From assembly GCA_023078555.1 (NCBI GenBank), contig CM041199.1, positions 7,135,315 to 7,199,314 on the forward strand: DNA of 64,000 nt, read 5' to 3'. Positions 30,734 through 54,315 of the stretch are shown piece by piece. A model generated the notes under the pieces. It was given only the letters and a program-made list of their open reading frames with translations. It did no database searches and had not been told where the DNA came from. Numbering within the stretch: position 1 is the first letter of the stretch; every line of letters begins with the position of its first letter. A program made the position numbers and the translations under genes. The DNA comes from Ulva prolifera (lineage: Eukaryota; Chlorophyta; Ulvophyceae; Ulvales; Ulvaceae).

Positions 30734-32353
30734 TCAATTCCCATACTTCCCTTCAGGCTTGGTGCATGCATCGCTTTGCTCATGCCTCATGGTGTTTTCT
30801 TTGGCAGCTGCTTCTGCTGCTGTGCCGAGTGTGGACACGGCAGCGTAGTATAAGAGAGCATACGAGTTGCAGTTTGTCAAGAGACGCGCCGGTTGCGGCG
30901 TAAGGAAAACACGAGAACCCTGATGATTGGGTTCCGGTCCCGGCAATTCTGCAGCATATCCCTCAGGAATGCAGCATCACACTGGCGCTTGGTGAATGAT
31001 GTGCTGGCATAGCAAAAGTCGTGGTTGCAGCAGGCGTCGGAGAAGTCGAAAATGAATGGAACATTGTCCGGAACAAGCGAGGAGAACCCATCTGCTGCTC
31101 CACAGCCATTGTCGCAGTTGTTTCCAGGGCAGTCGAAGCAGTTGGGGTTTGCCGGGGGCGGTTTCCCCACATAGCAGTCAGAGTACACGCAGCAGCCATC
31201 ATCACCAACCGCGCTCCAGCCGCCGCATGAGGATGGCCGATTCTGCAGCAGAGCGCGACGGGGGCCAGTGAAGCCTGCATGCGGCCTACCAGTACTGGTG
31301 TTCATGTCCTGATTGATTCCCAAGGTCAATTGCAATGCTCACGACCAGCCTGCGCACGGATGTCCAAACAGATGATCTGTATGTATGTAGTTACAAAGGA
31401 CAGAGGCCGGGCAGCGAGCCGTTGCCAGGAATGCACACGCAAATGCACTCATGCAGTCAAGGCACTAGGCCGGGTACGAGCACGTACCACAGCTCGGCCG
31501 GTGGTGCCAGCTAAAGCTTAAAGCCCCGCACGGAGCACAAGGGCATTCCCCTTGTACCACGCCACACTCAACCGGCGCAGATCATTTGTCACAAACAAAG
31601 CACGGTTCACCTTACCACACCGAGACCTGTATGTAAGTATGCATGAAGACATAAACGAATAGATACCGGTCGGTACCTCCACATTTTACCGCATACTGCC
31701 TGCGCACACAAAATCGACACGCGCCGTGGCAACTCAAACAAACATATGTGCGCCTCAACGCATCCGAGTCACGCAAGTACCATGCGCCACGCACCAGCAA
31801 GCCGTCTGCCCGATTCCGCCTCACAGCCCTCGCTCACAGCTGCAAAGAGCGGTACATCACCAGATTCGGAAAGGTTTAGGATCTGAAGAGCCTCAGGGGT
31901 GAGGACCTCTTGCGGCAGTGCCGGTCGGGTTGTCAGCTGCACCTCGATGCAGGGCGTCGCTCCAGATGCACACGCCTGAGGCTCCCCAACAGCCGTCACA
32001 ATCGCGCCAAACTGGCCGCAGTCGGTACAGAGGACTTCGGTGTCGGTGACGGCGTCCGCAGAGTTCAGGAAGAAGTTGCCAATGGCCGGCAAGATGGGAT
32101 CTGGCGCTGTGGACTGCACTATGACACCGCCGATGAAGCACTGTGCCACGGTGTAGGCGGCCTGTTCCAGCAGTTCCTCTGATGAGGTAAATGGTGCATC
32201 AAACGGCACAGAGCCCGGGGGCTGCGCTTGCAGCAAGGGCGCAGATGCCACAAGCACAAGCGCCACTAGGAGGGTTGGTGTGCGGAACCGTGCCACCGAG
32301 CGATGCACAATTGGCTGGTGGGCGCGAGGTACCATCTCCTTGAAGCTTTCCAT
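30734..32353 (-). pseudogene. Secreted PLA2-like protein, paralogue 1 (frameshifted)
   Basis: Exon 1 32353-31795 starts MESFKEMVPRAH, with a signal-type hydrophobic run TLLVALVLVASAPLLQA, then the unrecognised cysteine domain (AAYTVAQC, GNFFLN, CTDCGQFGA, PCIEVQLTTRP). The intron 31794-31275 joins in phase 1 (GRRLAG-FTGPRRALLQ). Exon 2 encodes the PLA2-like part: VGDDGCCVYSDC, NPNCFDCPGNNCDNGC, then FDFSDACCNHDFCYAS with the His-Asp pair. At about 30905-30915 the frame shifts: the current frame stops at 30877, while the paralogous C-terminus (PARLLTNCNSYALLYYAAV) continues in another frame to 30734. It is either a young pseudogene, a shortened protein, or a one-base sequence error. The intron carries a dispersed repeat (31388-31518). 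Confidence 0.75.
31388..31518 (-). repeat. 135-bp dispersed repeat within the intron of paralogue 1
   Basis: Complement of 28446-28582 with scattered substitutions; same strand as the host gene. Ends CCTTTGTAACTACATA. Confidence 0.75.
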
Positions 32354-33527
32354 GGCGAGTGACAGCAGAACAGTTGGTGTAAGCTGCTCGGCGAATGACC
32401 CTTGTAATCCTGCTGCACCTGCATTTGTAATTACCGGGGTGGGTTGCGGCAGCAGCACGCCGTAACCCTGCGGCACCAGCACCTCACGGCGTGCTTCACT
32501 GGCACATCCAAGCAAGGGCCCTTGGGTGCGGGTACCCGGGTGCGATAGCATTTGTAGAAGCACAGCATGCGAGAAGATTTGCAGCAGCACTGCATGCTCC
32601 GTGACGTACGTCTGGAATGCGGCAACAGCCGCTGCTACGGTACCGTAAATGAGGCCTCCTCCAGCCCTACATCACCTGTGGGTAATGGTGGCGGTCACGT
32701 GGGATTTGTTGTTGAGGTAAGCGCCAACCTGAAGGTTGAAATTACATTCAATCGTGAACCGAAGAGGAGGAGACACATATGTAGTGCTGTCTGAGTGCCA
32801 ACCAACACTCGTAACAATAATGCCCAGTCTCGGCGAGATGCGCCCACGCAACCTGGGAGATCACGCTTGTGTACGTACCGCTCTTGATTACGGACGCCGT
32901 GCTAGATTCTTTTGCAAGAGCCGGTCGCTGGACACCACACAACCGACCGGTGGCCATGGCTGCAGCTGATGAACAGTACGCCAAAACGACACAATCTCGC
33001 AGAGCAGTGTTACATGCATATGTCACCAGGGTTGTCCTCATGATATTCATGTGCGCTCGGCTGTCATTTATACCCGGCCCCGGGCCAACATCATCCTTCT
33101 GATAAGGATATTTGGCAAGGCAGATACTGCAGGCTGGGGCAGATATCAGTTGACCGAAGCTGTTGTGCACACAAACATGTTTTGTGTCTGCGCAGTGACC
33201 ACTGCTTGATGGGATACCGCATTGAAGTCCCAAAGAATATTTATGCTCATTGCGACTGCAACACTAGTACTGCAGGCAGTCATGCAGTTGCAGCAGACTT
33301 GATAGCTGATGCGGGGCAATGAGTGTCGTACTTCCGAAGTGAGTCACCATGCATTGTTTTGCAGCTGCAGCTGTATGTTCTGTTTTGCATGCAAAGCAGG
33401 GGGTCACCTCCGCAAGCAGCTCGAGCAGACCCACTGGCACCTGCCGGCGGCCCGGGGGCCGTGCTTGGCGCCAATGTGCAAGTCGGACTGTTGAAACTTG
33501 AACAAATTTAATTGCACTATTCTAGTA
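32354..33527. other. Stretch without a supported gene
   Basis: Upstream region of paralogue 1. Its reading frame stays open to about 32590 but the signal peptide fits the start at 32353. No other features recognised. Confidence 0.45.
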
Positions 33528-33584
33528 TTACAAAAGAGTGAACGGGGAAGACAAACACCAAAACCTAATCTCATCCGAATCAAC
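33528..33584 (-). repeat. 60-bp family, full copy
   Basis: TTACAAAAGAGTGAACGGG ... CTCATCCGAATCAAC on the plus strand; complement of the copy at 25876. Confidence 0.85.
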
Positions 33585-33686
33585 AGCAACACATACATAC
33601 ACGATCACACTACAACCGCACCCACACCGTGCGGTGACCTCAGTCCAGTCCGGAAGGATCACTGTACATTCTGCACGTATATCTAT

Positions 33687-33744
33687 TTACAAAAGAGTGA
33701 ACGGGGGAAACCAAACACTGAAACCGAATCTCATCCGAATCAAC
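33687..33744 (-). repeat. 60-bp family, full copy, same orientation as its neighbour
   Basis: Second copy only 100 bp from the first, both on the minus strand. The spacer between them is unrelated to the repeat. Confidence 0.85.
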
Positions 33745-34539
33745 ATCAACATAATGTATATTTTGCACTATTCTGATCCGGCAGGAATGAGATTCAGTAG
33801 CACGATCTGCAGAAAGTATTCACACATGCGTATTATCTATGAGTCTATCTAGAGAAACTTGAAGAGCTGCACCTGAGTGACACCGGATCCAGTGAAGCAA
33901 AGTCCGCGCTGCCTTGGCAATGAACTTGTCCGCGCGCGCCTCAACTGGGAGGAGACGCGTACGTACCACAATCAATTGCAGCTGTGATGGATCATACGTT
34001 GTCGCCACAACGCAGAGGTTATCTGGTGATCAGGCGCAGTACACAGTCGTAATTTATAGCCTGCTGATTGCTCAGTTGCGCGTGCAGACGGGATCACGGG
34101 TTTGCTTGGCTTGAGCAGATCCTGCGTGTTCACGTGACAGCCATATGCATGTGTGCTCGGGGGCCCGCGCTAGAAGACTGGGTACCAAGTCTGCTTCACA
34201 CATGTATGCATCCGATAGAGTCTATGTATGCTCGAAGACAAAGCGATGTCCAATGGGACGTTGACCAATCCGAGACACAGGTGTGCATGCCAAGTCTCTC
34301 CTCCACTGTAGAGCGGGCAGTGTCCGAGTCAGCGTCGCGAACTCTGAGTTGAAAATCATGGTGCAGCCGAATTGACTCGGGTCTCAGGGCACCATGGCAC
34401 GACGGTTGATCAGTTATCATGACCTGTTGCTGCATGCTGTTGCATGCAGAGGGGTGAGCGGGACGATAGAACCGGGACGAGACAATCACAACAAAAGAGT
34501 CTCGTCTGAATCAGCAGCTCCACACACACACATGGGCGA
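33745..34539. other. Stretch without a supported gene
   Basis: A partial minus-strand copy of the 60-bp family lies at about 34483-34515 (ACAAAAGAGTCTCGTCTGAA). Otherwise nothing recognised. Confidence 0.45.
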
Positions 34540-34990
34540 TGCAGGGTCCTGGGTGCGGTGCGGCGTGGGCCGGCGGGGCTGCGCGGCGGTGTGCAGGGCT
34601 GGCGTGGTATGCTGTGGCTTGGTGGGGTGGGGGTGGGTCTTGGGGCCAGGGCGGGCCCCGGCAATCGGGCGGCCATGATGGGCGGCCTCAGGCAGCAGTG
34701 TGTTGGGTTTGGCCCTGTCGTACGGCGGCGGGCGTTGTGGTGCTGGTGGTTGTGATGTTGTGTGTCGGCCGTGGGGTTTGTGCGTGCGCGTTTGTGGGTT
34801 TGGGTTTGTGGGTGTGTGGGTCTGTGCGTGTGTGTGCTGGTGTGTGGGTGTGTGCTTGGCGGTCTGCGGATCTGTGTCGCTTGCTGCGCCGGTGATGGGT
34901 GAGATGTTCGTGGGTGTCTTGGTGTTTGCTTCGTCTGCTTGCTCCTTTCGCGGTGCTGCCCGACTTGCTGCCTTTGTCCTTGTAACACAC
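34540..34990 (+). repeat. G/T-rich TGTAACAC-ended repeat, left-truncated copy
   Basis: Begins at GTCCTGGGTGCGGTGCGGCG, about 150 bp into the longest copies, then aligns to the common right end at 34990. Confidence 0.82.
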
Positions 34991-37009
34991 GGGCGCCCGT
35001 CTGCAGACAGTTCCTACCAGAATTCATATGTGCCAACAAAGCTTGTGTTTGCGGTACCAGCGTGTACTTTTGCTAGCCATGCTAGCGACACAGCTGTACA
35101 CATCTGTGCGCACATGTGTGAAAAGAGTGTATGAGCCTGAGCAGCATGATCCCTCGCAAAGCAGCTTCAGCCTGCAAACCCAAACGCTATTCTGTTTACT
35201 CTTTTGTAAACACGACCCCAAATGCGATTCCACACATCCCACACATTCCCACACGCCCCAGCCAGCCTGCTGGGGCTGCCGCAGCAGGAAGTGTCCAATA
35301 GATCCGGAGTCCCAAACATGGGGCCCCATGACCACATTTGTTCACATCCATGGCCATCACCCGGGTGATGGCCATGGATGTGAACAAATGTGGTCATGGT
35401 GTTCAATCTTGTGTTCTGTTGTTGTGCCACCGTGTACACTACTTGTGTGCTGCTTTCCCAATCGCCTACAAGTCCCCAGATCTGGAATAGACCTTAAGCT
35501 TGTCCTTGAATGACAGATCAGGTTTTCCAAGACACATCTTGTGGCAATGCTGCAGCCAAATTCGTGCACTGCTACTGCCGCAATCACACCTTTGAGCTCC
35601 TCAGCCCCATGGGAGTGGAATATCTGACTGTAGTGTCTACTGTGCCACCTGCCTTCAACTTGAAGGCATGAAGTTCATATGTGTACATATACATATATGT
35701 ACACCTGTGCCCACCTTCCCAGTCTTGTCCTCGTCATGCAGTGCTCAACATTGCTGCATATGCTGTCAAGTTCGCTGCACGGCGTGGATTCACTGTCAAC
35801 CCGGTGTTTGTCTTCTTCCGTTCTCTCCTTTGTAAAAGTGTCAACCCGATCGCATCCACTCAGTCACGGGCTGTCAACCCGACTGCAATGGACCTGCAGC
35901 TATAGCTACACACACCCACGTGTACATGAGCACTTGCCTCTAACTACAGCCCCATACCCACGTCTACAGCCCCATACCCACATGGTTCACCTCGGCAGGG
36001 GCGGCGCCGGAAGCGGCGGCGGGACCGCTGCCCGAGGCCGATGACCCTCGGCGGCCTCGGGCTGCCGGGCATGCCCAGTGGTCCCAGCCATCGCTCCACG
36101 TCCGGCGCAAGCCCCCGGCTCCCGACTGCAGGTCGCGCAGAGGCACTCAGCGCGGTGATATTCTCGTGTCCATCCCTGGCGCGCTGGTGATCAACGAAGC
36201 GTGCGTATCTACCCCGCTGGTCGGCCCCAACATCCGCAACGCGGGGGCCTGTACACGTGACGGTGCCACCGCGGCGGTTGCCGACGGGCGCGAGTGCGAC
36301 ATATACGGCTGGGTGGGCTCTGGGGCATTCATTCTTTTGTAATCGCCTTGAGTGCACTCCCATACAACACACCCAGAGGACATCTGTGTTACAAGGACAA
36401 AGGCAGCAGGCACCCCCGCGGCAGTACAGTGACATGATCGCTGTACCGCTGCACTGCCACGACTCCGCATGCACGTGCACCCCACACAGCCACGCAACCA
36501 TGCCCGATCACATACAGCCTTTAAACACAAAGCACAACCGCCCTCACGCAGCATGCGGTACAGCGGCGTGTCTGCTGCGTTACAGGTTGAACCGTTTACA
36601 CAGCGCGGATGCACCGGTAGGGCAAAGCCGGGACGGCATGCGCACAGCTACATGCGACCCCAACGTCTGCAGCAATGTGTCCGCCCGGGCAACGTCAACG
36701 GAGGCAAGCACAGCGTGGGCAACACGAGGGCATTGCTATTCACTCCAGGTGGGCAGTGAGGTGCGACAGGGCGCGGGACGGCATCGCAAGAGCCATCGTT
36801 ACGGCCAAGTCCGCACGACATCATGTGATGATCAGGCTAGCAGCGGGATGGCAGCATGCACCTCACAGGTCACTGCCCGGCAATGCGACGTGAACTGTTC
36901 GTGGTTCGTGCTCTGGAGCGCTGAAAGCTGCGTCCGACCCTGTAGCCACATCAGCAACGAAGTTGATCATGAGGGATGCAGTGAGCAGGGGTTGCGGCAT
37001 GCATATGCG
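34991..37009. other. Stretch without a supported gene
   Basis: Contains the palindrome at 35326-35399, a 60-bp-family fragment at 35801-35836, fragments at 35186-35212 and about 36330, and a GTGTTACAAGGACAAAGGC repeat end at 36386. Frames near 36000-36300 are GC-rich but have no recognisable domain. Confidence 0.45.
35326..35399. repeat. 74-bp perfect palindrome
   Basis: Two 37-bp arms with no spacer, centred on CCCGGG between 35362 and 35363. Left arm starts CCATGACCACATTTGTTCAC. No mismatch. Confidence 0.97.
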
Positions 37010-37051
37010 GTCGGTTTTGGTGTTTGTCTTCTCCCGGTCAATCTTTTGTAA
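37010..37051 (+). repeat. 60-bp family, partial copy
   Basis: GTCGGTTTTGGTGTTTGTCT ... CTTTTGTAA, lacking the first 15 bp of the family. Confidence 0.75.
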
Positions 37052-38727
37052 TAAATCATCGACCAACAGCGCGCTGTTGCAATCTGATCGAGAATCTGGG
37101 CACGCCCCTGATCAAGAATCTGGGTAATCAGATACCCATGGGGCAGATGGGCGGGGGGCGGGGGGGCAGTCCTGGGGAGACCTTCGCGCCGAGGACCTTG
37201 CGCCAGCACAGGTTGCCGCGCTGCCAGTGTGTGTCTCAGAGGGGCCGGGGGCGGGCCTCCGAGGGGAAGCCGAGTCCAAGAGTATGCGTTGACGCAGGCG
37301 TCACGACTTCGATTCCACAGCAAGTATCAGCTCCATCGATCAACAACGTCGCTGACTGTGCATACCTACATGTGCCACTGCACAACCTTGCGGACACCCA
37401 CGTGTGTGAAGTAGACTTGCCAGCTTGCGGCGGCAAGAGGCGGGCTAGCGATCCAGCATGCATGGCTGTAACGTGAACACAGCAGGTGACCCAAGGTAGG
37501 CGCTTCCCTCGCGCCTGCATGCGCAACTGCGCAGGAAGCATAGCATTAGCGCCCGTGTGTACTTCGAATGGCCACCAGTATCAGCCGTGTACACACGCGG
37601 TCACCCTAGCGTCCATCTGAGGGCTTCAACCTGTTGAACACCCGGCTAGCGTCGTCGCAGCTGGCGGGACGTACTGGCCCACGTGGTAGGTGCGAACATT
37701 GCTTCATTCTGCTTTGTTTGTCTTTGTTCGTTCACTCTTCTGGAATACTGCTTCAGGACCCACGCTTCTGTAACACTCAGGTGCTGCTCTCCGAACCGTG
37801 TCCACGAGCCACCTGCACGAGGTCTGCTGCTGTATCTGATACAGTGACGACACGTACGTGCTCACATGCTCGCGCGCGCCGGCAGGACGGGCCCGAACGT
37901 ACGTGTGCCTGCTGATGCTTGTGTGCTGCTGCTGCTGTGTTTTTTGCTGTAGCTTGGGGTCTGTGACGGTCGTTTCGGAAGAAATTACTGTGCGATGGTA
38001 GCTGCCACACTAGTATGTACCAGGTCACCGTGCTCAGAGCTACACACGCTGTATCGACTTGTGCGTTCAGATCTGGACAGATCTACAAGAACAAACGTAT
38101 ACAGAACAACCCTATAGAACAATCATACACCCAATTCTTTTAAAATTGTGGTATTTGTTTTCTCCAGTTCGAACACTCTTCTGCTTACATATCTAATATA
38201 TTATAATTACATTTAAATGCCGATTTGATCAGATGGTCTGGGAAGCGAAACAGTCTGTAGTTGCAACATGTATCCCGCTTTTGTGAATGCGACGTGCTGT
38301 TTCAAGAATTCTGCGAAGAGGGGCTGGTATTCAGCCTACACCTCGTCCACAAAAGATTCTGGTGCTATCCGTGGCGGACCCACTCTTCGTAGATCTGTAA
38401 CACAGAGTGCCGCACACCCCATTCACTGCGACCCAGTTATGGGGCCCCGCACCAGCTGTCATGTCTCGTGTAGTATCTGCACTCAGTGTATCTACACTCA
38501 GGCTGTGCAGGCTCTATGCACCTGTTTGGCAGCACTGGAGGATCTGGCCAGAGTGGATCCGCAGTGCGACATATGGCATTTTGCAAGCACATGCACTGCT
38601 AAGTAGTGCTGCAGTGCGGTCCGCCACGTGTACTTTTGAAAGGACCAAGGCAGAGAGGCATGCAGCACTGCACCCAAGTGGCAGCACACGTAAGCTGAAA
38701 AAAGAAAAGAAAAACAGGTGCTGTGTG
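37052..38727. other. Stretch without a supported gene
   Basis: Two decayed 60-bp-family ends at about 37711-37745 and 38149-38190. A 112-codon plus frame at 38268-38606 has no recognisable domain or paralogue and is not called. Confidence 0.4.
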
Positions 38728-38995
38728 GTGTTACACAAGGATAAATGAAGCGAGGCGGGTAGCACTGGAAAAAAAGTAAGCCAGCAGAGCAAGCACAAAA
38801 CCCAGACACCCATGCAACACAACCAAAACCCACCCCGTGCGTGCCACACCGTGACGCCCAGAAACCGAAGTCGCACCCAGAACCTCAGACCGCGAAATAC
38901 CCACACCCACACCCACACACGCACCCAAACAGACATACACCGCCCCATGCTGTTCACCATTATGTACACACACGCTGCACATCATGTACACATGT
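38728..38995 (-). repeat. TGTAACAC-ended repeat, minus-strand copy
   Basis: Begins GTGTTACACAAGGATAAATG and continues with the complement of the G/T-rich body (AGACCGCGAAATACCCACAC). Located 190 bp upstream of PLA2-like paralogue 2. Confidence 0.65.
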
Positions 38996-39183
38996 GTAGG
39001 TCACATTGAGTGGAGGCTTGTGTGAACGTACGTTTGTGGAATCTCACGCCTGGGATTCACACAGCGATTCGTGTGTACTGTAGCTGTCGTGTGATGTTGT
39101 TGTGTGACCACAGAGGTCCTGCTTGTTCATGGCGGTCCCTCAGCTGCTCGAGTAATATTAATGCTGGCGGATCCAAGTGCACA

Positions 39184-40734
39184 ATGGCGCTTGCCCTCGT
39201 GGTCTCACTGTCTCTGATGCAGCTGCAGCCTGCCCTGTCTAGATCTGCCCCACAATATGCTACGGAGGCACAGCTGGCAAGCGCGTCCTACACGGTGACG
39301 CAATGCCTCCCCAGCGGCTTGATGCTGCAGTCCATGGCGTCTGACCCTGTCCTGCCATACACAGGCAACTTCTTGCTCAACAGTGCTTACACCGCAACTG
39401 ATCCCGAAGAGCTCTGCACAGATTGCGGCCAGTATGGTGCGATTTTTATGGCAGTAGGGGAGCCTCAAGCATGCGCATCGGGAGCGACGCCTTGCGTCGA
39501 GGTGCAGCTGACGACCCGACCTGCGCTGCTCAGTGAGATACTCTTTCCTGAAGCGCTGCAGTCCCTCGGCCGAACCAACTCTTCTGATGTGACGCTGTTT
39601 GAAGTTGTGACTGAGGGGTGCTGGGCCCCTGGGGCGACAGAGATGCCGCGGCCAGGGCGGGCTGGTGGTGCGACGCGTCGCGACGCTCACGGCTCCTGAA
39701 AATATCTTACTACGTATGTAGTATATAAGAGTGACCGGGAGAAGGTTAATACAACAAAAGAATCTCATCCGAATCACTCCTGATAATGCTGTGCCCGTGG
39801 CAACTGCGGCATCGATGGTTGATGTGCACGTTGCTGTTACGATGCATGCATGTGATGCAACATGTGACTGCATGTTGTGTAAGGTTCCTTCAGTACTGTA
39901 AGTCTTGAGGATAGAATAAGTGACGCATATGTCCGTATGTCTGCGTGACCTTGATGCACTTGTTTAAATGGACATATGCATGTGTCAAGTCGTCTCGGAC
40001 ACATGCATGATGTGTCCCTGGACACATGCATGATGTGTCCCGAGGTCCAATGGTCATATGATATGACCATTGGACCTGACCATATCTTGTGTACATGTAC
40101 CCAGCATGCAGGCGTCGGCGGGCCTCCAGGACGGCGTTCTCTGCTGCAAGCTCCCGCCGCGCCGGCAACATGCGCAGGCTGGAGAGCAGTCGGTGATGAT
40201 GGCTGCTGTGTGTACTCTGACTGTTGCGTTGGGATACCACCCCCAGCGAACCCCAACTACTTCGGCTGTACTGGCAACAACTGCACCAACGGCTGTGGCC
40301 CGGGACTGTTGGCAGGGATTTTTCCGGACCGTATGGAAGGCGTTTTTGACTTCGCCGATGCCTGCTGCAAACATGACCACTGCTATGCTAGCACATCGTT
40401 CACGCAGGCGCAATGTGACGATGCATTCCGGACCAATATGCTACGAGACTGCCAGGTCCGGTTTGCGGCTGTCATGCTTTTGCCTCAACCACCACCGGCA
40501 CAGGCTCAAGCCAAGATGAACTGTGAGACGGCCGCTATGACATACTTTGCTGCTGTTCAGCAGTTAGGCGGAGGTAGTGCGGCGGCGGCCCAGCAGAACA
40601 CCATTAGACATGAGCAGAAACCGCAATGCTCAAAACCGCCACCCCCACCACCCCCGCCGCCCCCGTCGCCCCCACCGCCCCGTCCACCCCCGTCGGCGCC
40701 ACCACCCCTGGGCGGATATGGCCAACGCCAGTAG
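39184..40734 (+). CDS. Secreted PLA2-like protein with proline-rich tail, paralogue 2
   Basis: Exons 39184-39664 and 40112-40734 give 367 residues. The intron has a GTGGTG donor and CATGCAG acceptor, phase 1. Residues 1-19 form a short signal peptide (MALALVVSLSL...). About 30-146 is the unrecognised cysteine domain: YTVTQC, GNFLLN, CTDCGQYGA, AC at 96-97, PCVEVQL, EGC. Residues 183-274 are PLA2-like: DDGCCVYSDC, FDFADACCKHDHCYAS (His248-Asp249 dyad), then QCDDAF and further cysteines. The FDF..AC..HD arrangement recalls the fungal/bacterial type of PLA2 more than animal secretory forms. If active it would hydrolyse phospholipid acyl chains outside the cell; calcium-loop residues are not clear. 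The C-terminus is polyproline with SPPPP, typical of hydroxyproline-rich wall proteins. It appears intact and is the best model of the family. Confidence 0.8.
39728..39779 (-). repeat. 60-bp family copy within the intron of paralogue 2
   Basis: AAGAGTGACCGGGAGAAGG ... GAATCTCATCCGAATCAC; antisense to the host gene. Confidence 0.7.
39997..40077. repeat. Three consecutive hairpins in the intron of paralogue 2
   Basis: Two 21-bp hairpins (GGACACAT gcatg ATGTGTCC) at 39997-40017 and 40020-40040, then a 16-bp-arm hairpin with a 3-nt loop at 40043-40077 (AGGTCCAATGGTCATA arm). They end 35 bp before the splice acceptor. Confidence 0.9.
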
Positions 40735-43700
40735 ATTGGCATTGCAGCTTGAAGCAACGACCAAGACCATGGCAGTCCAAATTGCAGGAGCAGTTGAAGC
40801 GACAACTTGAAGGTCGAATCCGAGCGCTGTTCTATACAGCCGATGCTTTGTCAACGTCACTTTAAATTTGCTGCACTGCTGTCGCACTCTGGCACTGGTG
40901 TTCCGGGTGCAACAATGGAGGCCCGCTGTACAGTACTTCTGCATCTTTGTGAGTTTCCTGCACGCCGTACGTGTTTGGCCAACAGCGCTGTACATGTGGC
41001 AAGTACACCGGCAGGGCCAGTAGCAACGTACGGTGTAACACCTAACTATAACGTTGTTGCAACCAAGCCTGCATCCGGGAGACTGCAGAAGCACGCCGCT
41101 GCTTCAAAATTAATATCACGCACTGCTGGCAGCTACTATGGCTCATAGTATGGCTCATGCGGGCGGCACTGTATGATGCCGTGGAGGTCGTGCTTACCGT
41201 GGCATGTTGTACGAGCTTCAAAGCGCAAGAGTACGCATGGCATGAATATGCACACCATGATGGTGGCCGGGGTGACAGCGCAATCTGCAGCTCACTACAA
41301 GGATGGTAGGCAGGTGATGCTGTACATTATCAGTGACCCATTGCCGGCTGAACAGTAGGCAAACAGTGTCCAGATGTGTATGAACTGTATGGCGATCGAC
41401 GCAGGAGTGGCCGAGTGCTGTACAGCTAACGTGCTGTTTGACAGGGATGTGAACGGTGGTGTTGCACGGTCGACGCGCTGCGACTGTGGACAATGTACAC
41501 TTCTGTGCGACGAGTGCGCGAGCTGCCCATTCAATCCTGTGAAATGTTCACGAGTACCTGGATGATGTGCACGTGCAAGTACTTCGGCCTGCATCATGCA
41601 GTGCAAGTGGACCGGCAAGATGCGCTCGTCGTGTACATTCCTCGCGTGGCGTGTTCACGTCCTTAAAAATCGGCACATTACTGACACTCTTTCATGAATA
41701 ATGTGCTCGTCAGGCGTAGGCTACGAGTGCTGTTATACCACAATGATGTACAGTTGGTGCACACGAAATGCGATAGCAGATACCCGGTCATGCGGTCCGT
41801 GTGTAGGCTGCAGCTGCTTAACATGATCTTCTATTGTACGGACAATAGTTAATGCCGATCATATCAGGCCACTCCAGATCTGGCACTAGTGTCCGTGCCG
41901 TCGCACTGGCATCCGCTGAGGTACCCGGCTCTCCGGAACATGGCGCAGTCAACATAGGTATACATTATGTGCACTTACTAACGCTAAACATGCGGAGCAG
42001 CTATGCAAAGTGTTTGGCACGCTGCACAGGCAGCTGCACTGCGCGTGCCAACACGGCATCAGAGTTGTTGACCACGGCACGACGAAACAGCAGCGACACC
42101 GACAACTAACCAGACAAATTGCTGCTGAATACAGACTGTTGTGCTTGATGCTGTTCTTGAGCAGGGCTGAGCATGCGGATGTGTACACTGTGGACAAGAC
42201 GGAACGTACAGCTGCAGATACAATGTCTGCATATGCACGATATCGTGCATCCCCAGTCACAGTGCAGCAAAGTATTGTATTTGTCAGCTGCTACCAGTGC
42301 AGCACATATGTGCATTGTGCCTTCACAGGACAACCGACGGCGTGTGGCCGTACGTAGCAGATCGACGCTGCACGATCACAAGCATTCGACATTATGCTAT
42401 GCCTACCGCAAGAGGACTAGCTGTAGATGAGAGAAATGCAATCGACATAACAGTGCCTTGAGCGAATTTTCTCATGCCTGCCGACGTTCACCTGACACTT
42501 GTCGTCAGCGTTGACCGTCAAATCAATTACTATCGTTGATTAAAACACTGGCTCCATCTTTGATCTTTCCTTTGATGTATACTATGCGCAATAGTGACGA
42601 GCACAACCAGCAGGTCACACTTCCGCGATCAAACCAGTATTGGCGTAACAAAACCACAATGGAGCGCAGTGAGCGCCTCGTTCAGCAAACAGTAATATGC
42701 AGGTAGCAATGTAACACGATTTTCACCTTCGTTGAGTATCATGCTTCTGTTATCGAGTTGACATTTCAGACGACGCCGCGACTCTGCTGCGCACTTGTCG
42801 TGCTTGTGCAGAGTGGTATGCAGCGAAAGCTGTAAGAGGCCTGATAGCATAGTACTCTACAACAATCAAAGACATATAGAGTTGTACATTGTCGTCGCGG
42901 ATCAGGCGAAATGATTCTGGTTTCTGCAAACGTGAACGTCCTACCGCGCCATTTGTAACACGCTGACAGCATCACCTCAAGTACATCGTGTTCGCGGATC
43001 TTGGAATCGAACAACTGATAGATGCAGTATATTTGAAGAACGTGTTGATATCGCAATCTGTCCTAGCGTACAGCAACGGCTCTACGAATTGAGCTGCCAA
43101 CAGCAGGCTACTGATAGCAGGCAACCCGAAACGAGCGAACTAAAACTGAAAACTGAAAAAGGAGCACATCAGCTGAAATGTGCTGTTCGTGTACATTTGC
43201 TAGCAGCTTGCGCGGTCGTGGCGTGGGTCAAACATGTGCTCGACAAGTACACCAGCCACGGAACTGCACACTTCGGTGGAGCGTCGGAGCGCGTTCGTGG
43301 AATGTACATCATCAGAAGCTGCCGAGTGCTGGACGTGTACATGACGAGCACACGCAGCCTATCAGCTGATGTGCTGTTCGCAGGAGCATGAAAGCGCGTT
43401 TGCGGCATCTGCATTCCACACGTTGAGATGCGCTGCAGGTGCGCACCGCGACACCACGTGGGCAACACATCCCATGTACACGTTTCGAACGCAGTTCACC
43501 CAGTCACGGAATGTGTCTAAAGAGTCCGTGAAATGTGCGCGAATGTGCCGGCGAGCAAAACGAGTGTCGCTAATGTACACGCTGGCGTGCCTACCATCCT
43601 TGTAGTGGCTAGCCTGCATAGTTGTGCCCCGGAAGATCTGCGCCTGCAGCGCTGAGCTCAGCTGCGCAGAAGGCTCCTGGCTTCTGTACAATGCAGCTGC

Positions 43701-44225: not shown

Positions 44226-44505
44226 TTGTGGCCAGCAGGCCACCTGGGGGAAGCGTGTACGTGTCATGCCCTTCAGCATGGCCACATGTGGCTATGCTGA
44301 AGCGGCATGACAGGCAGTCTTTCCCTAAGCAGCGCTGCTCACTGCACTACCTTGATGGTTTCCTACCTGTGGCCAGCAGGCCACAGAAGTCAAGCGTGTG
44401 CATGTCACACCCTTCAGCATGGCCACACGTAGTTGTGCTGAAGCGGCCACATGACAACCTGTCTTCGAGTAGCGCTGCTTACTATGCAACCTCGCTGTCA
44501 TGCAC
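44226..44505. repeat. 141-bp tandem dimer, each with a hairpin
   Basis: Offset 141 bp (GTGGCCAGCAGGCCAC at about 44228 and 44369). Each unit carries an inverted repeat CTTCAGCATGGCCACA..., nearly perfect at 44271-44302 and diverged at 44412-44443. Confidence 0.82.
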
Positions 44506-47500
44506 TCAGCCCGCTCTGGCATGCCGCTGCTAGAGGCTGAATAAAAAAACACTGGTGAACTGCAATTCAATGATGCGTCTTCAGCTCCTGGCGTGTTATC
44601 TCTGTAGCGTATCCGGGCAAGATCTGCACCCATATGCCTCATTGTGCACACACACGTATTGCAAGAAACTCATGTAGTTGAAGCAGAAGCAATCGATCCA
44701 CAGTATTCCACAGCATGCAGGACACCGCAACAAGCTCAAAGCACACTGCAATGTAAAAATGACGAGCCGACCTTGCTTCGCAACTAGCCCATGCAAAAAA
44801 ACTTGTCATCTGTATCTGCTGAATCCGTTTGCAAGCGCAGTGGGTAAGCTGCAACTGATTGCATCGTGGGGCGAGGCTGACGGTGCCTCGAGAGAGATCG
44901 AGTGAAACCCTCAGACGCTATCACTTAGTGGCAAGGACCAGACTGAAACTATAAGTCAGTGTTTCACCTCCTTGTGAATGCGGGTCTGCGTTGGATGGAT
45001 ATGTGCTAGGACCTATGCGCTGACCAGCAACTACAGCGTTGCTTTTCACTGGAATCGGCTACTCTTGCTGGACTGTTGACAAAAGATTGCAAAATATTAA
45101 AGAAATGGATGTCGCGCTGCAGAATCAGACGTCTACCGGTGACGTGATGTGTTTAGCGTGTGCAGTCGCGCATCACCGTCGAACACCTGTTCTAGACGCC
45201 TGTGCACTGCAATCACAAAGAAAAATACGATCAGTCTTCAACGTTATAATGTCCTACCACGGGTATACACAGGGCAGCGGATCGTTGCGGCCTGGGCATC
45301 GGGGTTGAGTCCCTTCGGCTGCTGCTAACAAGAGCACCGCGAACTGAAAGCAACACGGCAATCGCGATCGCGCCCCTCACTGGATCAGGAGCTCTATGAT
45401 GAGTACGGAATCACAATTGTTCCGGTCCAAGACATACGCTGGATCGATCGCTACCAACTGTGTCACCCGCGCGACTATTCCACAGCATTATGCGTGCCTA
45501 CCTACACCTTGCTGAATGTACAATATGCCCTAAACGATTCATCAGACTTGCATGCGTTCGCTGCTTTATGTGGTTGTTCGCGCTGTATCACCTCATTGTT
45601 CATGCGGCACTGCGCCACTCCCGCGATACTCGGTGGCCACGGGCGTTCCCCATGTCTGGCGCAGGCACGTCTGCCGCCCACCAAAGGGCACATGAAACCC
45701 ATCGCGAGCATATTTCGCCTCGTGAACAAGTCTAGAAAGCGAAGCGCAAGCTTTTGGCCTCGCATTCAAGCGCCTTGCACTGCGCAGCGTTCGGACAGCA
45801 TCAACATTATGGGCGCAGGAATCGTCCGATCACATTTCATGGCATGCTCTGCACGTCAGTGTTAATAATGAAGCAGTCTGAAAATGCTTCTTGAACGATG
45901 CTGCCAGTGTCTTGACGTGCACGATACTGCAGTGCTGTACAACACGCCGTAGGTATGGGCTGCAAATCACCGAACCAGGAGCGCGGACTCGTTCGTGAGA
46001 AGTGACCAGTCAGAACAAGAACGTCAGGTCGGACAAGCAGATGTTCAACGTGCTTCCCATGCTGTCCTGCTGATGCTAGCACTTGAGTGCTTGCTGTGCA
46101 TCAGTGGAGTCCTGCAGACATCACTGCTTTCTGACACGCGGCACCACGATAGATCCTTGTATGTCAAGTGGAATTAAAAATTTTGTTGGGGCTGTGACCA
46201 GTTGTGACACTTCAGACTCACCTCGCCTGTACCCATCGCTGTCCAACCACGTAGGTGAGCACTTTATGACAGATTGCATTGCCACCACGGTATACAATAA
46301 CTATAGTATGATATGTACATACTCCGTGATCACAACTACGGCGTATACGACTGTCGCCACGTGAGCCTGACCAGCTCCTCAGTATGTCCTCACGTGACAG
46401 TGCACAGCTTCCCAATGTTCCTGCCACAAGCTGGGCACTTTTGGGTCCTTACAAAGCAGCAACATGTGTCCAAATTCCAGCCCAGTCTGGTCCTACACTT
46501 TATGACCACATAGTGTGTCCTTACGGACGTTATGCTTCAGCCCTATCACCCGTAAGGCTCATGTAAGCCGCATGGACGTCATAAGGATGATATTCGGCCG
46601 TCCATACGTGAGGATCGCGTGGTGCTGCCGTAAGGACATTTCGGTGCTACTAGTGCAGAAGGCAGCACCTGCAGAGAGCGACACTGGCACAAACAGGGAT
46701 AACATCGTCGAACAGGCTACACACGTTGATGCTGCTCACATCATATATATGCAATGCTGCTCACATCATATATTGCATGCAAGGTCATCTGCACTCAATA
46801 CACAGCATCGGGAACATTGAATGACTGCCCTGAGTCTGAAACAGGGGCAGTGTGTTACATGAAAGCACTTAGAGACTCGGAGGATGGTAGCCCCGCCAGG
46901 GGCACGCGTCAGATGTCACTCTGTCGACGGCTCCACTGCAGGACTCGGATGCATACGGCCCCACACTCCACGCCCAGGACGGATGCAGTACCGCCGCACA
47001 CACCCCCTGTCAGCCCGCGATAGGCACTCACACACGGGGAAGCTCTAGTGCACCGACGCGCATACTCAAGCATGTGTGTACACACCCATGGCCACTCCGA
47101 GTCCGAGTCGCACACGCACGGCCCCTCCGGCTTTTTCCTTTGTAACACACACCCACGGCACCGCCGTGGGGTGTCCCCACAAACCCCGATGTAACACAGC
47201 CTCAAGACCGGTACCACGTCGATCCGTCACGGTCGGCGGCTGCGGCGGTCCCAGTTCACAGCGCGGCTGCCGCCAAGCCCGCGGGGCCACGCAACACGTG
47301 GGGCATTCAAGCCCCCTGAGGGCCTCGGAGGCTCGCCCGTCCCGTACAGGGGGCGCCTATAAGGACACCAGTCCACAGAGCCCGTCCAACAGTTTCGTCT
47401 GTGTACGTCGATCGTTGTGGACGTCTTGATATCTGCTTGTGGCGATTGCGGCCGTGGCGTGGGTGCGTTGGTCTGCGACAGTTGACCACACGGAGCCAGA

Positions 47501-47922
47501 ATCGGGACTTCGTCATCATCGATGGGGCTCTGCAGCACATGTGGTCAGGCACCATCACGACTCGTTTTACTTGTGCATGAAGTCATATCACTTCTGTGCC
47601 AGTCGAACTGCGAGCATTGGCGCGCCGCCGATTTTTCACATGTAGCCGCGGCACCGCGGTGGTCATGGGACCATGAATGTTATCAAAAAAAAATGTTATC
47701 AAAAAAAAATATCGCGATCGTCGACGATCGGCCGCGCGGTGGTCATGGGACCATGAATGCCACCGTTGAAGTTGTGCACATGTCACACGTCGGCGTGCGC
47801 GTCGTGAGCAGAGCCCGCATGCGATTTTGGGCCGGGAGTTCACAATGCTGACTGCACAGCGCGAGGGGGGGCGGGCTTGCGCGTGAAATTGTGGGTGTGG
47901 GGTGTGGGGGCCTGTGTGTGTC
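44506..47922. other. Long stretch without a supported gene
   Basis: Frames at 45390-45600 (EYGITIVPVQDIRWIDRYQL) read protein-like but have no start, splice pair or paralogue. A TGTAACACAC repeat end lies at 47131-47150. Two A8-9 runs lie at 47686-47708. Confidence 0.4.
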
Positions 47923-47975
47923 TTACAAAAGAGTGAACTGGAGAAAACAAACACTGCAAGCTCATCCGAATCAAC
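47923..47975 (-). repeat. 60-bp family, near-full copy
   Basis: TTACAAAAGAGTGAACTGG ... CTCATCCGAATCAAC. Confidence 0.82.
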
Positions 47976-48042
47976 TTCAACACATGTGTACACACTCACA
48001 CACAGAGGGTGTGGGGGCCTGTACATGTGTGTGTAAGTCTCA

Positions 48043-48158
48043 AGGACAAAGCCGGAGGGGCCGGTAGTACAGCCAGGACGACGAGGAAGCACAGGACCAA
48101 CGCAAAGCACACGCGGCGGGAGAGCAACAGCCACCTCAAAGCCGCCTGAACTCAGGGC
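48043..48158 (+). repeat. Dispersed repeat shared with 13283-13396
   Basis: Same blocks and spacing as the copy in the OPR array; begins CTCAAGGACAAAGCCGG. Confidence 0.65.
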
Positions 48159-48189
48159 CAAGTCACAACAGGCACCCGCACACGGCACC

Positions 48190-48461
48190 ACCTTGGGCAG
48201 CAGTGTGTTGGGCGCGGCCCTAACGTACGGCGGCAGGCGTTGCGGTGTTGGGGGTTGTGTTGTTGGGTGTGGGCCATGGGGTCTGTGCATGCGTATGTGG
48301 GTGTGTGCTTGGCGGCCTGCAGATATGTGTCGTTTGCTGCGCGCGTGATGGGTTTTCTGGGCATGGTGGGTGTTGCGCGCATGGGCGTCTGGGTGTGTGC
48401 TTCGTCTGCTTGCTTCTTTTGCGGTGCTGCCTGCCTTGCTGCCTTTGTCCTTGTAACACAC
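48190..48461 (+). repeat. G/T-rich TGTAACAC-ended repeat, left-truncated copy
   Basis: Aligns from GGCAGCAGTGTGTTGGG to the common right end. Confidence 0.82.
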
Positions 48462-48499
48462 GGCACCTCGCCTCAGCCCGCCTGTGTGTGTATAGTTGC

Positions 48500-48647
48500 G
48501 GCCCGGGCGGGTGCTGCATCATGCGTCATGACGCGTGCGGCTGCACGGGTGTGTTGGTATGTGCTGCTTGTTGCTGGTTGCGTGGGTGTGCGGTTCCCCT
48601 GGTTGTTGCCCGTGGTGCTACCTTGCTCGCTTTGTCCTTGTAACACA
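48500..48647 (+). repeat. TGTAACAC-ended repeat, short GC-rich type
   Basis: Shares GTGTTGGTATGTGCTGC, GGGTGTGCGGTTCC and the end GCTTTGTCCTTGTAACAC with 61025-61167. Confidence 0.7.
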
Positions 48648-49625
48648 GCGCACGTCCAGGCCGTCCCCCGCTGCGATCTGTCCAGGCCAGCAGGACATTC
48701 ACAGCCATATCCAGCGCTGACACCGGTGCGCCATCATCGCGCACCATTAAATATTTAAGCTGTACATTTGGTCGGATGGTGCACGTGCGCATGTTCACGG
48801 AAATCCGCGACGAGTCTGCAGCCCGCCGCAGATGTAAGGCATATATGGCAGCGCTGCCATATATATATATAGATCTGATCTACGTCCCACTGGAGCTTGC
48901 CACGATACTACAATATCGTTGTCCGAATTGTGGACCACCGGCGATCTCATCGAAATTCCTCCGCAGCACACATGCAATTGCAAGAAGCGGCCACACGGGC
49001 ATCCCCCCCCCCCCCCCCCCCCCCCCGGGCCCGGGCCCACAACCACTGCCGAGCTGCTGCCGACTCGGATGTGTTCCCCCTATGGACAGTCAGCGTGGTG
49101 CTGCCATGGTCGAGAGGGCGGGCAAGCGGAAACTGTCGATTTTGCTGCACTGTGTGCTCGAGCTCATGCATGATGCATTGCAGCATATGCTGTTCAGAGC
49201 ATCGGCCACATGAGGTGTGCTCCACAATGAGCGGACAAACAGATCAATGACTCTACTGTATAGAGTCGTCGAGGCTTGCCATGCATGAAGATCTCAACTC
49301 AACGTAGCTCTCATTCGGCTCACCCACCGATATCAATGCTCTGCGCCGCGTCAGGGCCGCCGGCGCAGCGGCTGCGTCGGTGCTGGCACAGCTGCCTGCA
49401 TCAGGCTAAACATATGTTTATATAAAGGCCTCCACCAACTGCAATCCCGCTTGACTGGCTGAGGCCGGCCTCCGGAGTGGCCACCATCGTGATGGCCATG
49501 GCAGTTGCAATCCCGCTTCATGATGTGCACAAGCTTTGCAGACCAGACGAACTGCGGAGGCCGGCGGGAACAGCGTCTACCACCAGCCGATGCTGGCCAG
49601 CAGCCGAACCTGAAAGGCGTCCCGG
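48648..49625. other. Stretch without a supported gene
   Basis: 48648-48840 shares blocks with 27420-27620. A pure C run of about 21 lies at 49006-49026 and is a likely site of length error. Confidence 0.45.
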
Positions 49626-49675
49626 TATTCCGGACCACCTCCCGACCTCCGGAGGTCGGGAGGTGGTCCGGAATA
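49626..49675. repeat. 50-bp perfect palindrome
   Basis: 25-bp arms, no spacer, centred at CTCC/GGAG between 49650 and 49651; ends TATTCCGGACCACCTCC. Confidence 0.97.
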
Positions 49676-49678
49676 GGT

Positions 49679-49716
49679 CGCGATACTAGTATCGGGATCC
49701 CGATACTAGTATCGCG
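49679..49716. repeat. 38-bp perfect palindrome next to the 50-bp one
   Basis: 19-bp arms centred on GGGATCCC; each arm also holds the internal palindrome CGATACTAGTATCG. Confidence 0.97.
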
Positions 49717-51250
49717 TCCTGCCCCTCGAGGCGGGATAAGGCCAGATGGCCCATGAGCACCGGGAGATCGTCTGGCAGGACTGTGAGTTCAGGCCTACCT
49801 TGCCTGCGTGGTGTGCCAGCAGCAGGCCAGCTGAGTTGGAGAACGCTGACCTGGAGAGATCATGGCTGTGCACCGCATCTTGCGCAGCAGCCGTCTGGAG
49901 GCTGCCAAAGCCAGCTTGCAGCCACGCCAGCGGAAGCTGACAAGTGGGTGACCCCCTCAGTGTGTGGGGATGGCTTGACAAGCTCAGACGTGTACTAACA
50001 TTTGACTTTCTGTGTCTACTCTATTCTAATGCATTAGAATGGTGGCAGTGGCTTGAGTGTACACATGTGCTGTATTCCTGAAAGCGCGCGCGGTGCCGGA
50101 GTCTTGTGCGCTGCCTCTGCCTCTCCGGGCCGGCCCCCAGCTGCCTCTAGAACTCCTTGTCACACCCGGGTTCGACATGGAGTGTGGGTGTGAGGCCTCA
50201 CACCCACACGCACACCCCGCAGCATTGACTGGCAGGCTACAGCAGGGTTGGGCTCCCGAGAGCCTGTTTGCATCGGGGGCCGCCAGGCACTTGTTGGCCG
50301 TTCAGAAGCTGATCAGCTTGTCTCGTGAGCGTTTCGTGTGCTCATGATTCGTGAGCGATTCGTGCGCTGCAGCTGCGATGCCCTGCTCCCCGTTCTGTCT
50401 CTTGTAGCAAGCTGACCGCCATGGCGTGCCAGTCGATGCTACACCGATGTACAGTAGTATCCTGTACACGTCACGCTGTAATTGCGCAACGCCTGTGAAG
50501 TCCACGAGGGAGCCTCTCGCAACGTGCTGACGTCGACGCACTGCGCACGATGCATGCGAGGTCAAGGACGAGGCCATGTTCGGATGAAAAGTTGTGGGCT
50601 GTCGCATTTACATCAACCAGCAGAGAAGACTTTGCTGAACTCTTCCCACCTGTGTGAACATTTTCATCAGTATATAGGTTCCAGAGAACAGTCCGCGTGA
50701 TCACCTGAGGATGCTGCGTTGCGCATTGCACACGATAGCTGCGTATGATACAAAATCATCAATTCGAGCTACAGCTGTTTTAGTAACGCCCTTACTGCAG
50801 CAAGAGAGGAGGGGCGGACCCGAGCTTCCGGATCGTGCGTCAGGTGCTCTCCGAACGATGTGCACGCTCGTATCTGCACGCACCCCGCTGTGACAGTATG
50901 ATCAGCCTTTGAGGTATACAAACGCCTCAGAGGCCGCATTCTGCAGCTGCCTTTGGCGTGACTGCTGATTTTGCTTGCCACTGCTGCCTGCCATATGGAA
51001 TTTTGACAGGCTGCATTCATGGGATGACTGCGATCCAGAGTTGCATTTGCATAAGACTCTATCCTGTATCTGTCACATGTCATCAACATCTCGAGTTGAG
51101 CTGAAGCTTGCTTGGACTTTTTGTTGCAAGCGGGCATACCAACTATAGCAACATGCCACATTCTGGCGAACACACGATGAGCAGAAGCACATGACCTCCC
51201 GCTCCTGTTCGACACAAGTCTGCACAAGCCCTCCAGATTGCTCTCATGCT
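49717..51250. other. Stretch without a supported gene
   Basis: About 49745-49830 matches the complement of 29236-29320. A 28-bp perfect palindrome lies at 50182-50209 (GTGTGGGTGTGAGG arm). A 197-codon minus frame at 50769-51362 is not recognisable and overlaps a duplicated leader. Confidence 0.45.
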
Positions 51251-51575
51251 GCTGATTTGTGTAGATTCCCAGACAGTGCACCACCAGCAGCACTCCGTCA
51301 CCACTCAAACGCTCACAGGCTGTGTGCATTTTCCTGCTCACACTGCAATTTATGGGTGGCATCGAGCCGATGGTCTCTCTTGCCCACCAACCTCAAGCGA
51401 CTTGCCCAGCAGCTGATTTGTGCAGGTTCTCAGGCGTGCACCGCTGGCACCATCAGCACTCCGCCACCACTCAAAACGCTCAAAGGCTCTTTGCACCTCC
51501 CTGCTCACCCTGCAATCCACGGGTGGCATCGGGTCGATGGTCTCTCGCGCCCACCAGCCTCAAGCATCTTGCCCA
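51251..51575 (+). repeat. 161-bp tandem duplication upstream of paralogue 3
   Basis: Blocks starting GCTGATTTGTG at 51251 and 51412. It reaches to 13 bp before the ATG, so it probably covers promoter and 5' leader. Confidence 0.8.
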
Positions 51576-51587
51576 GCAGCCCGCACC

Positions 51588-54315
51588 ATGCGGCGGCAGC
51601 CTCTCAGCTGGACCAGCTGCATGCTCAAGTTCCTGGCCGCGCTGACCTTCATGGCCGCCTTTATGCAGCTGCAGCCCGCTGTCGCCAATACGAATGATGG
51701 GTCTACCACATTTTTTACCACTAGCACTGCTGGTCCTGTCACCAGTACCGCTGGGCCGACCAATTTTGTTGTCACTAGTACGGCTGGTCCCATCACTAGT
51801 ACTGACGGTTCTACTGCTGGTCCTGCCACTAGTACTGCTGGCCCTGCCGCTAGCACTGCTGGTCCTCCAACCGATACTGCTGGTCCTGCAACGAATACTG
51901 CTGGCCCTGTCACTAGTACTGCTGGTCCTGCCACTAGTACTGCTGGCCCTGCCACTAGCACTGCTGGTCCTCCAACCGATACTGCTGGTCCTGCAACGAA
52001 TACTGCTGGCCCTGTCACTAGTACTGCTGGTCCTGCCACTAGTACTGCTGGCCCTGCCACTAGCACTGCTGGTCCTCCAACCGATACTGCTGGTCCTGCA
52101 ACGAATACTGCTGGCCCTGTCACTAGTACTGCTGGTCCGACCACTAGCACTGCTGGCCCTGCCACTAGCACTGCTGGCCCTCCAACCGATACTGCTGGTC
52201 CTGCAACCAATACTGCTGGCCCTGCCACTAGTACTGCTGGACCTGCCACTAGCACCACCTCCGGCGCCGCTGGTCCTCAGACATCCCAGCCTCCACTATC
52301 AGAGGAATCGCTGGACGCCGCCGCGTACACGGTGTCAGAATGCCTCCCCGGCGGTGTTGTCCTCCAGTCCACGGCGCCCAACCCCGCCCTGCCGGCAGTC
52401 GGCAACTTCTTCCTCAACACCGCTGAGTCCATCGGCACGTCCGGCCCGGTGCCGGCATGCACGGACTGCGGCCAGTACGGCGCGGTCATCACGTCCGTGG
52501 GGCAGCCGCGAGCGTGCTCGTTCCGGGCCGCCCCCTGCGTCGAGGTGCAGCTGTCGTTCCGGCCGGCGTGGGCGAGCGAGGTCTTCACTCCGGAGCTGCG
52601 CCAGGTGCTCGGCCTGTTCACAACTGGAGACCTGGTGGTGTCGGACATCGCGAGCACCGGCTGCGGTGGGGGGTCCACGACTGGCGGGGGTACTACGTCC
52701 GGGGGTGGGAGGCGGCTGGCAGGCCACATGCATGGTGCGAGTCCTGTGGTCCCTGAGCAGCCGCTGATCACGCCGCACGTGTGGCACGCATGTGATGATG
52801 CACGAGCATGCATGAAGGACACGTTGATGGGTTTTGCATGTTGTGTTGTACATGACGGCATGATCATTACTTCTCGTAGTACATGATCCCTTGCAATGCG
52901 CAGCGACGCAGCGTTGCCTGCGAGTGCACTGCTTTATAGCGCCCCCAGGTGTTGCTGGGGCAGCTGCATGCAGTGGTCGATACATCTGAGCTCACGAGCG
53001 ACGTCGTCAAACAGCTGCTCAAAAGCGCGCATCCACTGGCTGGGCGTGCCAACTGCTGAAGCAGCAGCACGCCCGCTGCCCGTTGCAACGGCTGCCATTT
53101 AAAATTGAACGTGTACATTTGGCAGTGTTCAGTGTGTTCGGGCTGCGCAACCCCAAACTGCCCTGATCATGCTACACACCCCACATGCATGTACATGTGA
53201 TGCTGCACGCACATGCATGAGCAAACTGCTGTTGATTCATCACGGACATGCATGATGCCATGCTATGTTTCCCTGTAAGAATCTCCACCTTCAGTGCCGC
53301 CTGCGAGCATGCCGCGCCCAGGTATTGGTGTTGCTGGGACAGCATGCACTAGTCGACGGACCTGAGCGATGCTGTCAAACAGCTGTTCAATAGCACCCAT
53401 CCACTTGCTGGGCTCGCCAACTGCTCAAAAAGCCGCTGCATGCCCGATGCCCGTTGCAGGCCGGTCCTCTCACGCTGACTTTGACTGGCTTCACTGCAGC
53501 ATGCTCATCGATATCCCTGATCCGAGAACTGTGGCAGCGCTCGGCCGCTGCCACCGCACCAGCGCCTCCGGTGCTCCTGGCAGCACTGCAGCTGTGGAAG
53601 GACATCGTGGCATTCCAGTGGTATAGCGGCCACATCAATGGATTGCCACAGCCATCGTGCACGTTCACACGTGTACAAAGTGATCTGCTGACTCGGCCAA
53701 CGGCTTCGCTACACGTGCATCGATATCAGTGCCTAGCCAAAAGACTGGTCTGATCAGATGCATTGAGTGAATGCAGGTGCTGCTGGATCCGGGCGCACCC
53801 TTCAGCAGTCCACCACCCCGCCACCCTCATGCATTGGCTGGACATCTGCCACCAGCGACGGCCGCTGCGTGTACTCCAGCTGCTCTGTTGGGACCGGCCT
53901 CACGACGACCCCCAACTGCTTCAACTGCCCCGGCAACGACTGCGACAACGGCTGCGACATCGAGGGCGAACTCTCGGCGGCCGTTCCGGAGAGCGTCCCG
54001 TTCATCTCTGGCTTCACCGACGGCTGCTGCTCGCATGACCACTGCTACTCCAGCACAGCCTTCAGCCAGCGCCAGTGCGACGAGGCCTTCCTGCGGGACA
54101 ACCTCCAAGCCTGCCGAAGCGGGAGCGCAGCCGCGAGGGCGCTCACCTTCCTCCTGACGCCCGAGCCAGCGCGTCTCCTCACAACCTGTGAGACGTACGC
54201 CCATGCATACTTCATCGGCGTCTTCTCGCGTGCCACGAACAGCTACGCACTTGCGCAGCAAGTCACGAGGGACCATGAGCAGAGTGCTGCATGCTCTCCA
54301 CCAGTGCTGCGGTGA
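51588..54315 (+). CDS. Secreted mucin-like PLA2-like protein, paralogue 3
   Basis: Exons 51588-52734 and 53777-54315 give about 561 residues, joined in phase 1 (GTGCGA donor, AATGCAG acceptor). The start MRRQPLSW is followed by a hydrophobic signal FLAALTFMAAF ending near PAVA (about 33). Residues about 45-223 are 7-residue repeats of TAGPATS type, a likely site of dense O-glycosylation. The cysteine domain follows (about 235-350: AAYTVSEC, GNFFLN, CTDCGQYGA, PCVEVQLSFRP). The second exon encodes the PLA2-like part (DGRCVYSSC, NCFNCPGNDCDNGC, GCCSHDHCYSS with His469-Asp470), plus a C-terminal segment (EPARLLTTCETYAHAYF) also seen in the other copies. Secreted or wall-associated. Enzyme activity is inferred from the motif only. 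Confidence 0.8.
51722..52257 (+). repeat. 21-bp coding repeats in 105-bp higher-order units
   Basis: Unit encodes TAGPATS and variants. Five units (STAGPPT/DTAGPAT/NTAGPVT plus two) form a 105-bp block present at least three times. Confidence 0.93.
52945..53463. repeat. Diverged 150-bp direct repeat inside the intron of paralogue 3
   Basis: 52945-53100 and 53313-53463 share GTGTTGCTGGG.CAGC, GTCAAACAGCTG.TCAA and GCCAACTGCT. The offset is about 370 bp. Both lie in the intron 52735-53776. Confidence 0.65.
53607..53651. repeat. Second copy of the 47-bp hairpin element
   Basis: Matches the complement of 26370-26416 at about 40 of 45 positions (GTGGTATAGCGGCCA core); in the intron of paralogue 3. 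Confidence 0.75.

Follow-up and report, generated by a model that had tools for sequence, protein, structure and literature searches.

A gene family joining an upstream six-cysteine domain to a phospholipase A2-like domain in the green alga Ulva prolifera

A 64,000-nucleotide stretch of Ulva prolifera DNA (assembly GCA_023078555.1, contig CM041199.1; the window) raises the question of whether an upstream cysteine domain and a phospholipase A2 (PLA2)-like domain, encoded by separate exons at three loci, belong to one gene, and what the joined protein might do. An initial annotation placed the loci at 30734–32353 (minus strand), 39184–40734 and 51588–54315 of the window; we confirm these coordinates and denote the loci A, B and C. 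Sequence comparison confirmed that all three have the same upstream (N) domain and the same PLA2-like exon. The N domain comprises about 115 residues with six conserved cysteines, with the pattern YTVxxC...C.DC.Q.GA....G....C......C.EVQL..RPA...E......GC, while that of exon 2 is DGxCxYSxC.VG...C.NGC...CCxHDxCYxST.F...CD..F. Exon 1 of each locus begins with a hydrophobic N-terminal stretch (Kyte–Doolittle mean 2.2–2.6 over 12 residues); the signal peptides annotated there are retained here as signal-like segments, based upon hydropathy only. Around this constant pair the linkers and tails vary as described previously, with mucin-like repeats in C and a polyproline tail at the C-terminal end of the B protein.

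The N domain and the PLA2-like domain are paired in one gene, as judged from comparison of the five loci of this genome (A to C, and D and E outside the window). A phase-1 GT–AG intron lies at the same place in A, B and C, and likewise in D and E (467 and 642 bp respectively), with a CAG acceptor in all five. The annotated junction motif, GRRLAG or GRAG, is found at the donor, except that in C the donor is located a few residues beyond, between GRRLAGHMH and G. When the exons are joined at the predicted splice sites the proteins are 367 (B), 561 (C) and 318 amino acids (A, to an early stop). For the ten pairs of loci, local BLOSUM62 scores are 63–177 over the 60 codons before the donor and 17–29 over the 60 codons past it, and 16–31 before the acceptor and 140–262 after it. 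Shuffled controls gave means of 21–32 with a 95th percentile of 29, which the intron-side scores exceed marginally at most. The exons belong together because in all five loci similarity is lost at the donor and regained at the acceptor. In BLASTN comparisons among A, B and C each pair gives two blocks only, one within each exon. The percent identities of the two halves are correlated (r = 0.84 for 10 pairs that are not independent). The ratio of non-synonymous to synonymous substitution rates (dN/dS) is 0.30–0.48 for the N domain and 0.27–0.58 for the PLA2 half, values that are rough because dS is 0.63–1.87.

The two exons might instead be two adjacent separate genes that were duplicated jointly, since each occupies its own open frame and the gene model is known from sequence alone. 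However, in 5/5 loci the breaks in similarity coincide with GT and AG sites, and these agree in phase. Moreover, there is no common stop position within 25 codons past exon 1 (it differs in A, B and D, and there is none in C and E), nor a common start or signal-like stretch within 25 codons ahead of exon 2. We regard separate genes as very improbable.

The pairing extends through the genome (88.9 Mb in 44 contigs), which was searched with the halves of locus B and then with two divergent database proteins, P0013 and P0006; the latter recovered the same five loci. PLA2 and N-domain exons are paired one to one at all seven places found in the assembly. A, B and C lie within 23.6 kb on C4, the contig of the window; D and E are both on C2, separated by ∼17.5 kb. 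One of the C2 loci is present again, almost unchanged, on contigs C26 and C27 (99.72% identity in 5007 aligned columns, with 1 mismatch and 11 gap openings). The seven places therefore correspond to five real loci, not the three originally annotated. No unpaired copy of either half was found in the genome at E ≤ 0.001, where only the best candidates were scored and a very divergent copy could escape. Two weaker matches, one PLA2 (E 0.096) and one N domain (E 0.14), each contain an internal stop.

The copied C2 locus is E. C26 and C27 are 25-kb contigs that repeat its region (C2 near 3.396–3.400 Mb) at 99.7%, with differences that are almost all small gaps, and the PLA2 exon of E, matched in two pieces in the C2 copy, is open in the C26 and C27 copies. 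This suggests indel errors in the assembly. Locus A is also not the intact member it was taken to be. The reading frame of its exon 2 is broken in this assembly by a stop at 30877, and the last third lies in another frame, ending at 30734 when counted from the translation. Database protein P0002, which shares 97.7% of 130 residues with A, reads through uninterrupted. An assembly error is a plausible cause of the break, because small gaps make up almost all of the differences among the locus E copies in the same assembly; a true frameshift in this allele is also possible.

The upstream domain has no counterpart in the libraries searched. No Pfam family covers it in scans of the window loci, D and E, or the database relatives. 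The initial annotation likewise named no described family with this two-domain layout. NCBIfam lists nothing for locus B, and there is no credible PDB match for the domain. Searches of protein databases, with about 8,000 candidates scored in each, returned 12 distinct proteins in all. A pattern scan of both halves found no relatives in viral contigs, and a scan with the N domain alone found none in prokaryote genomes.

The PLA2-like label for exon 2 is upheld by sub-threshold Pfam matches and a PDB profile match, and a fold comparison is in keeping with it. By sequence this half appears nearest to the PF09056 and PF06951 types, below the gathering cut-offs of both (29.4 and 34 bits). Group XII PLA2 (PF06951) is the best Pfam match of locus B, at residues 188–324 of 367 (27.1 bits). 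The other PF06951 scores, all below the cut-off, are 17.0 for A and 13.0 for C, 13.4 and 17.4 for exon 2 of D and E, and 23.9, 13.2 and 19.5 for P0002, P0005 and P0006, with none for P0009. PF09056 gives 23.8 (B), 21.4 (A), 12.3 (E) and 28.3 bits (P0002), again sub-threshold, with C and D unlisted; P0002 nonetheless carries a precomputed database label of PF09056.17. In the whole genome PF06951 has three matches and PF09056 two, none above its cut-off, but the control genomes gave no PF06951 match either, and only 2/14 controls matched PF09056. For PF00068, locus B scores 10.2 of the required 32.1 bits, and the genome search gave no match, but neither did its control.

Each known class differs from the family in some respect. 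The group XII motif is CCxxHD, and the NGCG motif is common to human PLA2G12A and the family here, which differs from group XII in its CCxHD motif and extra upstream domain. The top PDB profile match, and one of the leading fold matches, is the prokaryotic/fungal PLA2 of PF09056 (Streptomyces 1faz, Tuber borchii 4aup); the two align in the C-x-x-HD spacing and in a second Asp (RID versus QCD), but the present family has 14–15 cysteines in the compared stretch, a CxGNxCxNGC segment before the site and the fused upstream domain. The plant secretory PLA2s (sPLA2s; group XI, PA2c) share a signal-like N-terminus, a disulfide-rich character and the HD pair, whereas the genes here lack the YGKYCGxxxxGC Ca2+ loop, and have NGC[GD] and CCxHDxC in place of CC-xx-HD. 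In the available text of PMC9995887 and PMC6635587 plant sPLA2s have 90–191 residues and 12 cysteines, and algae have one such gene. The plant ‘PLA2-like’ family, as described in the former, resembles ours in its greater protein length, in the position of the PLA2 domain within the C-terminal half and in a patchy occurrence in chlorophyte algae. By that description it has no signal peptide, six cysteines and DxCCxxHDxG, which sets it apart from the present genes, with their signal-like segment (3/3 window loci), higher cysteine number and CCxHDxC.

Taking these features together, we consider that the family probably comprises PLA2s that depend on Ca2+, are secreted and associated with the wall or matrix, and carry an accessory domain specific to the lineage. 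The signal-like segment, the cysteines, and the mucin-like and polyproline parts would direct the protein along the secretory route to the wall or matrix, where the last two may tether or space it. The PLA2 half is predicted to be a Ca2+-dependent lipase whose phospholipid substrates would be extracellular or within the secretory pathway, with the upstream domain as an accessory or pro-domain. In all seven rows compared there is no variation at the putative catalytic His, at the adjacent Asp or at the second Asp.

Alternatively, the proteins could be non-catalytic lipid-binding proteins in which the PLA2 fold serves as a disulfide scaffold and the Ca2+ loop is altered. There is a precedent in PLA2G12B, where, in the part of PMC10920679 that concerns it, phospholipase activity is lost while the Ca2+-binding domain is still needed. 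The CC-to-HD spacing (CCxHDxC) is one residue shorter than in the canonical DACCxxHDxC, the sPLA2 active-site motif given in the relevant section of PMC6635587. The residues following the invariant NGC also vary, being GAADG in A/P0002, D and P0006, and GPIDG in P0005, but GPGL-L in B, DIEGE in C and GPAVG in E. Nevertheless the three invariant residues, and dN/dS values below 0.6 in all 10 pairs, speak against this alternative, which we regard as less likely. Copies B, C and E, with altered residues beside NGC, may differ in Ca2+ dependence or be binding-only.

The secreted-lipase reading could be refined by supposing a zymogen, with the upstream domain as an inhibitory or folding prodomain whose removal leaves the free PLA2 active. 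Basic motifs flank the intron in the linker (RRLAG, then R-x-LLQ) and form a candidate processing site that would suit proteolytic release. RR precedes LAG, LSG or LKS in A, C, D, E, P0003, P0004, P0007 and P0010–P0013, and R-x-L-[LMQ]-Q follows the acceptor in A–E, P0002, P0005 and P0006; that the genome searches found no unpaired copy is also in keeping with it. On the other hand, the first RR is missing in B and its 94%-identical relative P0008, cleavage is only predicted, and an accessory binding domain would be conserved as well. We therefore put the zymogen forward tentatively, as a possibility on the doubtful side. No description of such control of secreted PLA2 in green plants was found in the literature.

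Loci D and E have a more elaborate architecture, with a cysteine-rich module ahead of the N domain (also in P0004 and P0013) and a ∼98-residue module after the PLA2 domain (also in P0005, P0006 and P0009). Neither was detected at A, B or C in searches of the genome. The P0006 query also picked up a short stray piece of the C-terminal module on C2; at C2:3761754–3761909 (minus), far from the rest of the gene, there are 52 residues with 94% identity to the end of this module of D. In trees of the two halves A, B and C form one group (support 0.99 and 0.95), within which the topologies conflict: B joins C in one tree (0.41), and A joins B in the other (0.93). The window genes are best read, from few sequences, as derived members of the family in which both modules were lost and mucin-like or proline-rich parts were acquired.

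The ENA contigs of PLA2 protein P0006 and N-domain protein P0011 each measure 134,656 bases, and those of P0009 and P0010 each 2,710 bases; the identical sizes are strong, if indirect, evidence that each pair shares one contig. P0006 shows 54% identity to D in 315 aligned columns (62% in the part matched in the genome search), so that the pairing probably predates this species, and the database proteins suggest that it recurs in a second, more divergent one. The trees place the second species differently, its PLA2 half beside A–B–C and its N domain with D, P0012 and P0013. A further proposal, also on the doubtful side, is that the N domain is new and confined to one algal lineage, as the obligate pro- or targeting domain of an extracellular phospholipase, and that a four-module ancestor (Cys-rich, N, PLA2, C-terminal) was stripped and redecorated with mucin and polyproline in the window cluster.

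The coordinates of the three window loci are collected in Table 1.

Table 1. Predicted features of loci A, B and C (window positions)
Feature	Position	Strand	Description
Locus A exon 1	31795–32353	minus	Signal-like hydrophobic segment (open reading frame residues 27–38) and six-cysteine N domain; donor GT from 31794
Locus A N domain	31796–32167	minus	Up to RRLA junction
Locus A intron	31275–31794	minus	Phase 1, 520 bp, GT–AG
Locus A exon 2	30877–31274	minus	PLA2-like domain with CCNHDFCY; early frame end at 30877
Locus A remaining homologous C-terminal third	30734–30906	minus	Different frame; 5′ boundary approximate
Locus B exon 1	39184–39664	plus	Signal-like segment MALALVVSLSLM; N domain 39280–39660
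Locus B intron	39665–40111	plus	Phase 1, 447 bp, GT–AG
Locus B exon 2	40112–40734	plus	PLA2-like domain 40138–40635; proline-rich C-terminal tail
Locus B His–Asp pair of CCKHDHCY	40372–40377	plus	Putative catalytic His and Ca2+-ligand Asp; invariant in 7/7 rows
Locus C exon 1	51588–52734	plus	Signal-like segment, Ser/Thr/Pro-rich mucin-like repeats, N domain 52314–52724
Locus C tandem array	51812–52252	plus	21-bp unit × 21 (105-bp higher-order unit × 4.2); mucin-like TAGPATS-type heptads
Locus C intron	52735–53776	plus	Phase 1, 1042 bp, GT–AG
Locus C exon 2	53777–54315	plus	PLA2-like domain with CCSHDHCY; short tail

Between A and B there is a 48-bp inverted repeat without spacer (35315–35410, 90% complementary). 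A dispersed 48-bp repeat with an ATCTC.TC.GAATCA core, possibly a small mobile element, occurs at 33544–33591, 33704–33751, 34475–34522 and 39738–39785 (65–100% identity), the last within the locus B intron. Elsewhere in the window two long open reading frames with internal tandem repeats (8255–10531 and 15759–18149, plus strand) are 92% identical over 2.1 kb and belong to a directly duplicated segment that spans 3.4 kb or more (94%). Only the second was scanned; it matches FAST_1 (PF06743; whole-protein E 7e-12, although no individual stretch passes by itself) and is closely followed, at 18296–18985, by a RAP domain (E 1.4e-7). A further long frame (21729–23789, minus) matches protein kinase PF00069 at residues 138–249 (E 1.6e-16).

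The survey of plant PLA2s, in the text available (PMC9995887), describes one canonical sPLA2 gene in each alga, and a PLA2-like family without signal peptides. The genes described here would be a case of expansion of a secreted PLA2-like family in an alga; they add a secreted PLA2-like architecture and a protein domain that the libraries searched do not contain. The five paralogues form a natural series with a fixed core pair and variable ends, in which a controlling or targeting role of the upstream domain, if it has one, would be directly testable.
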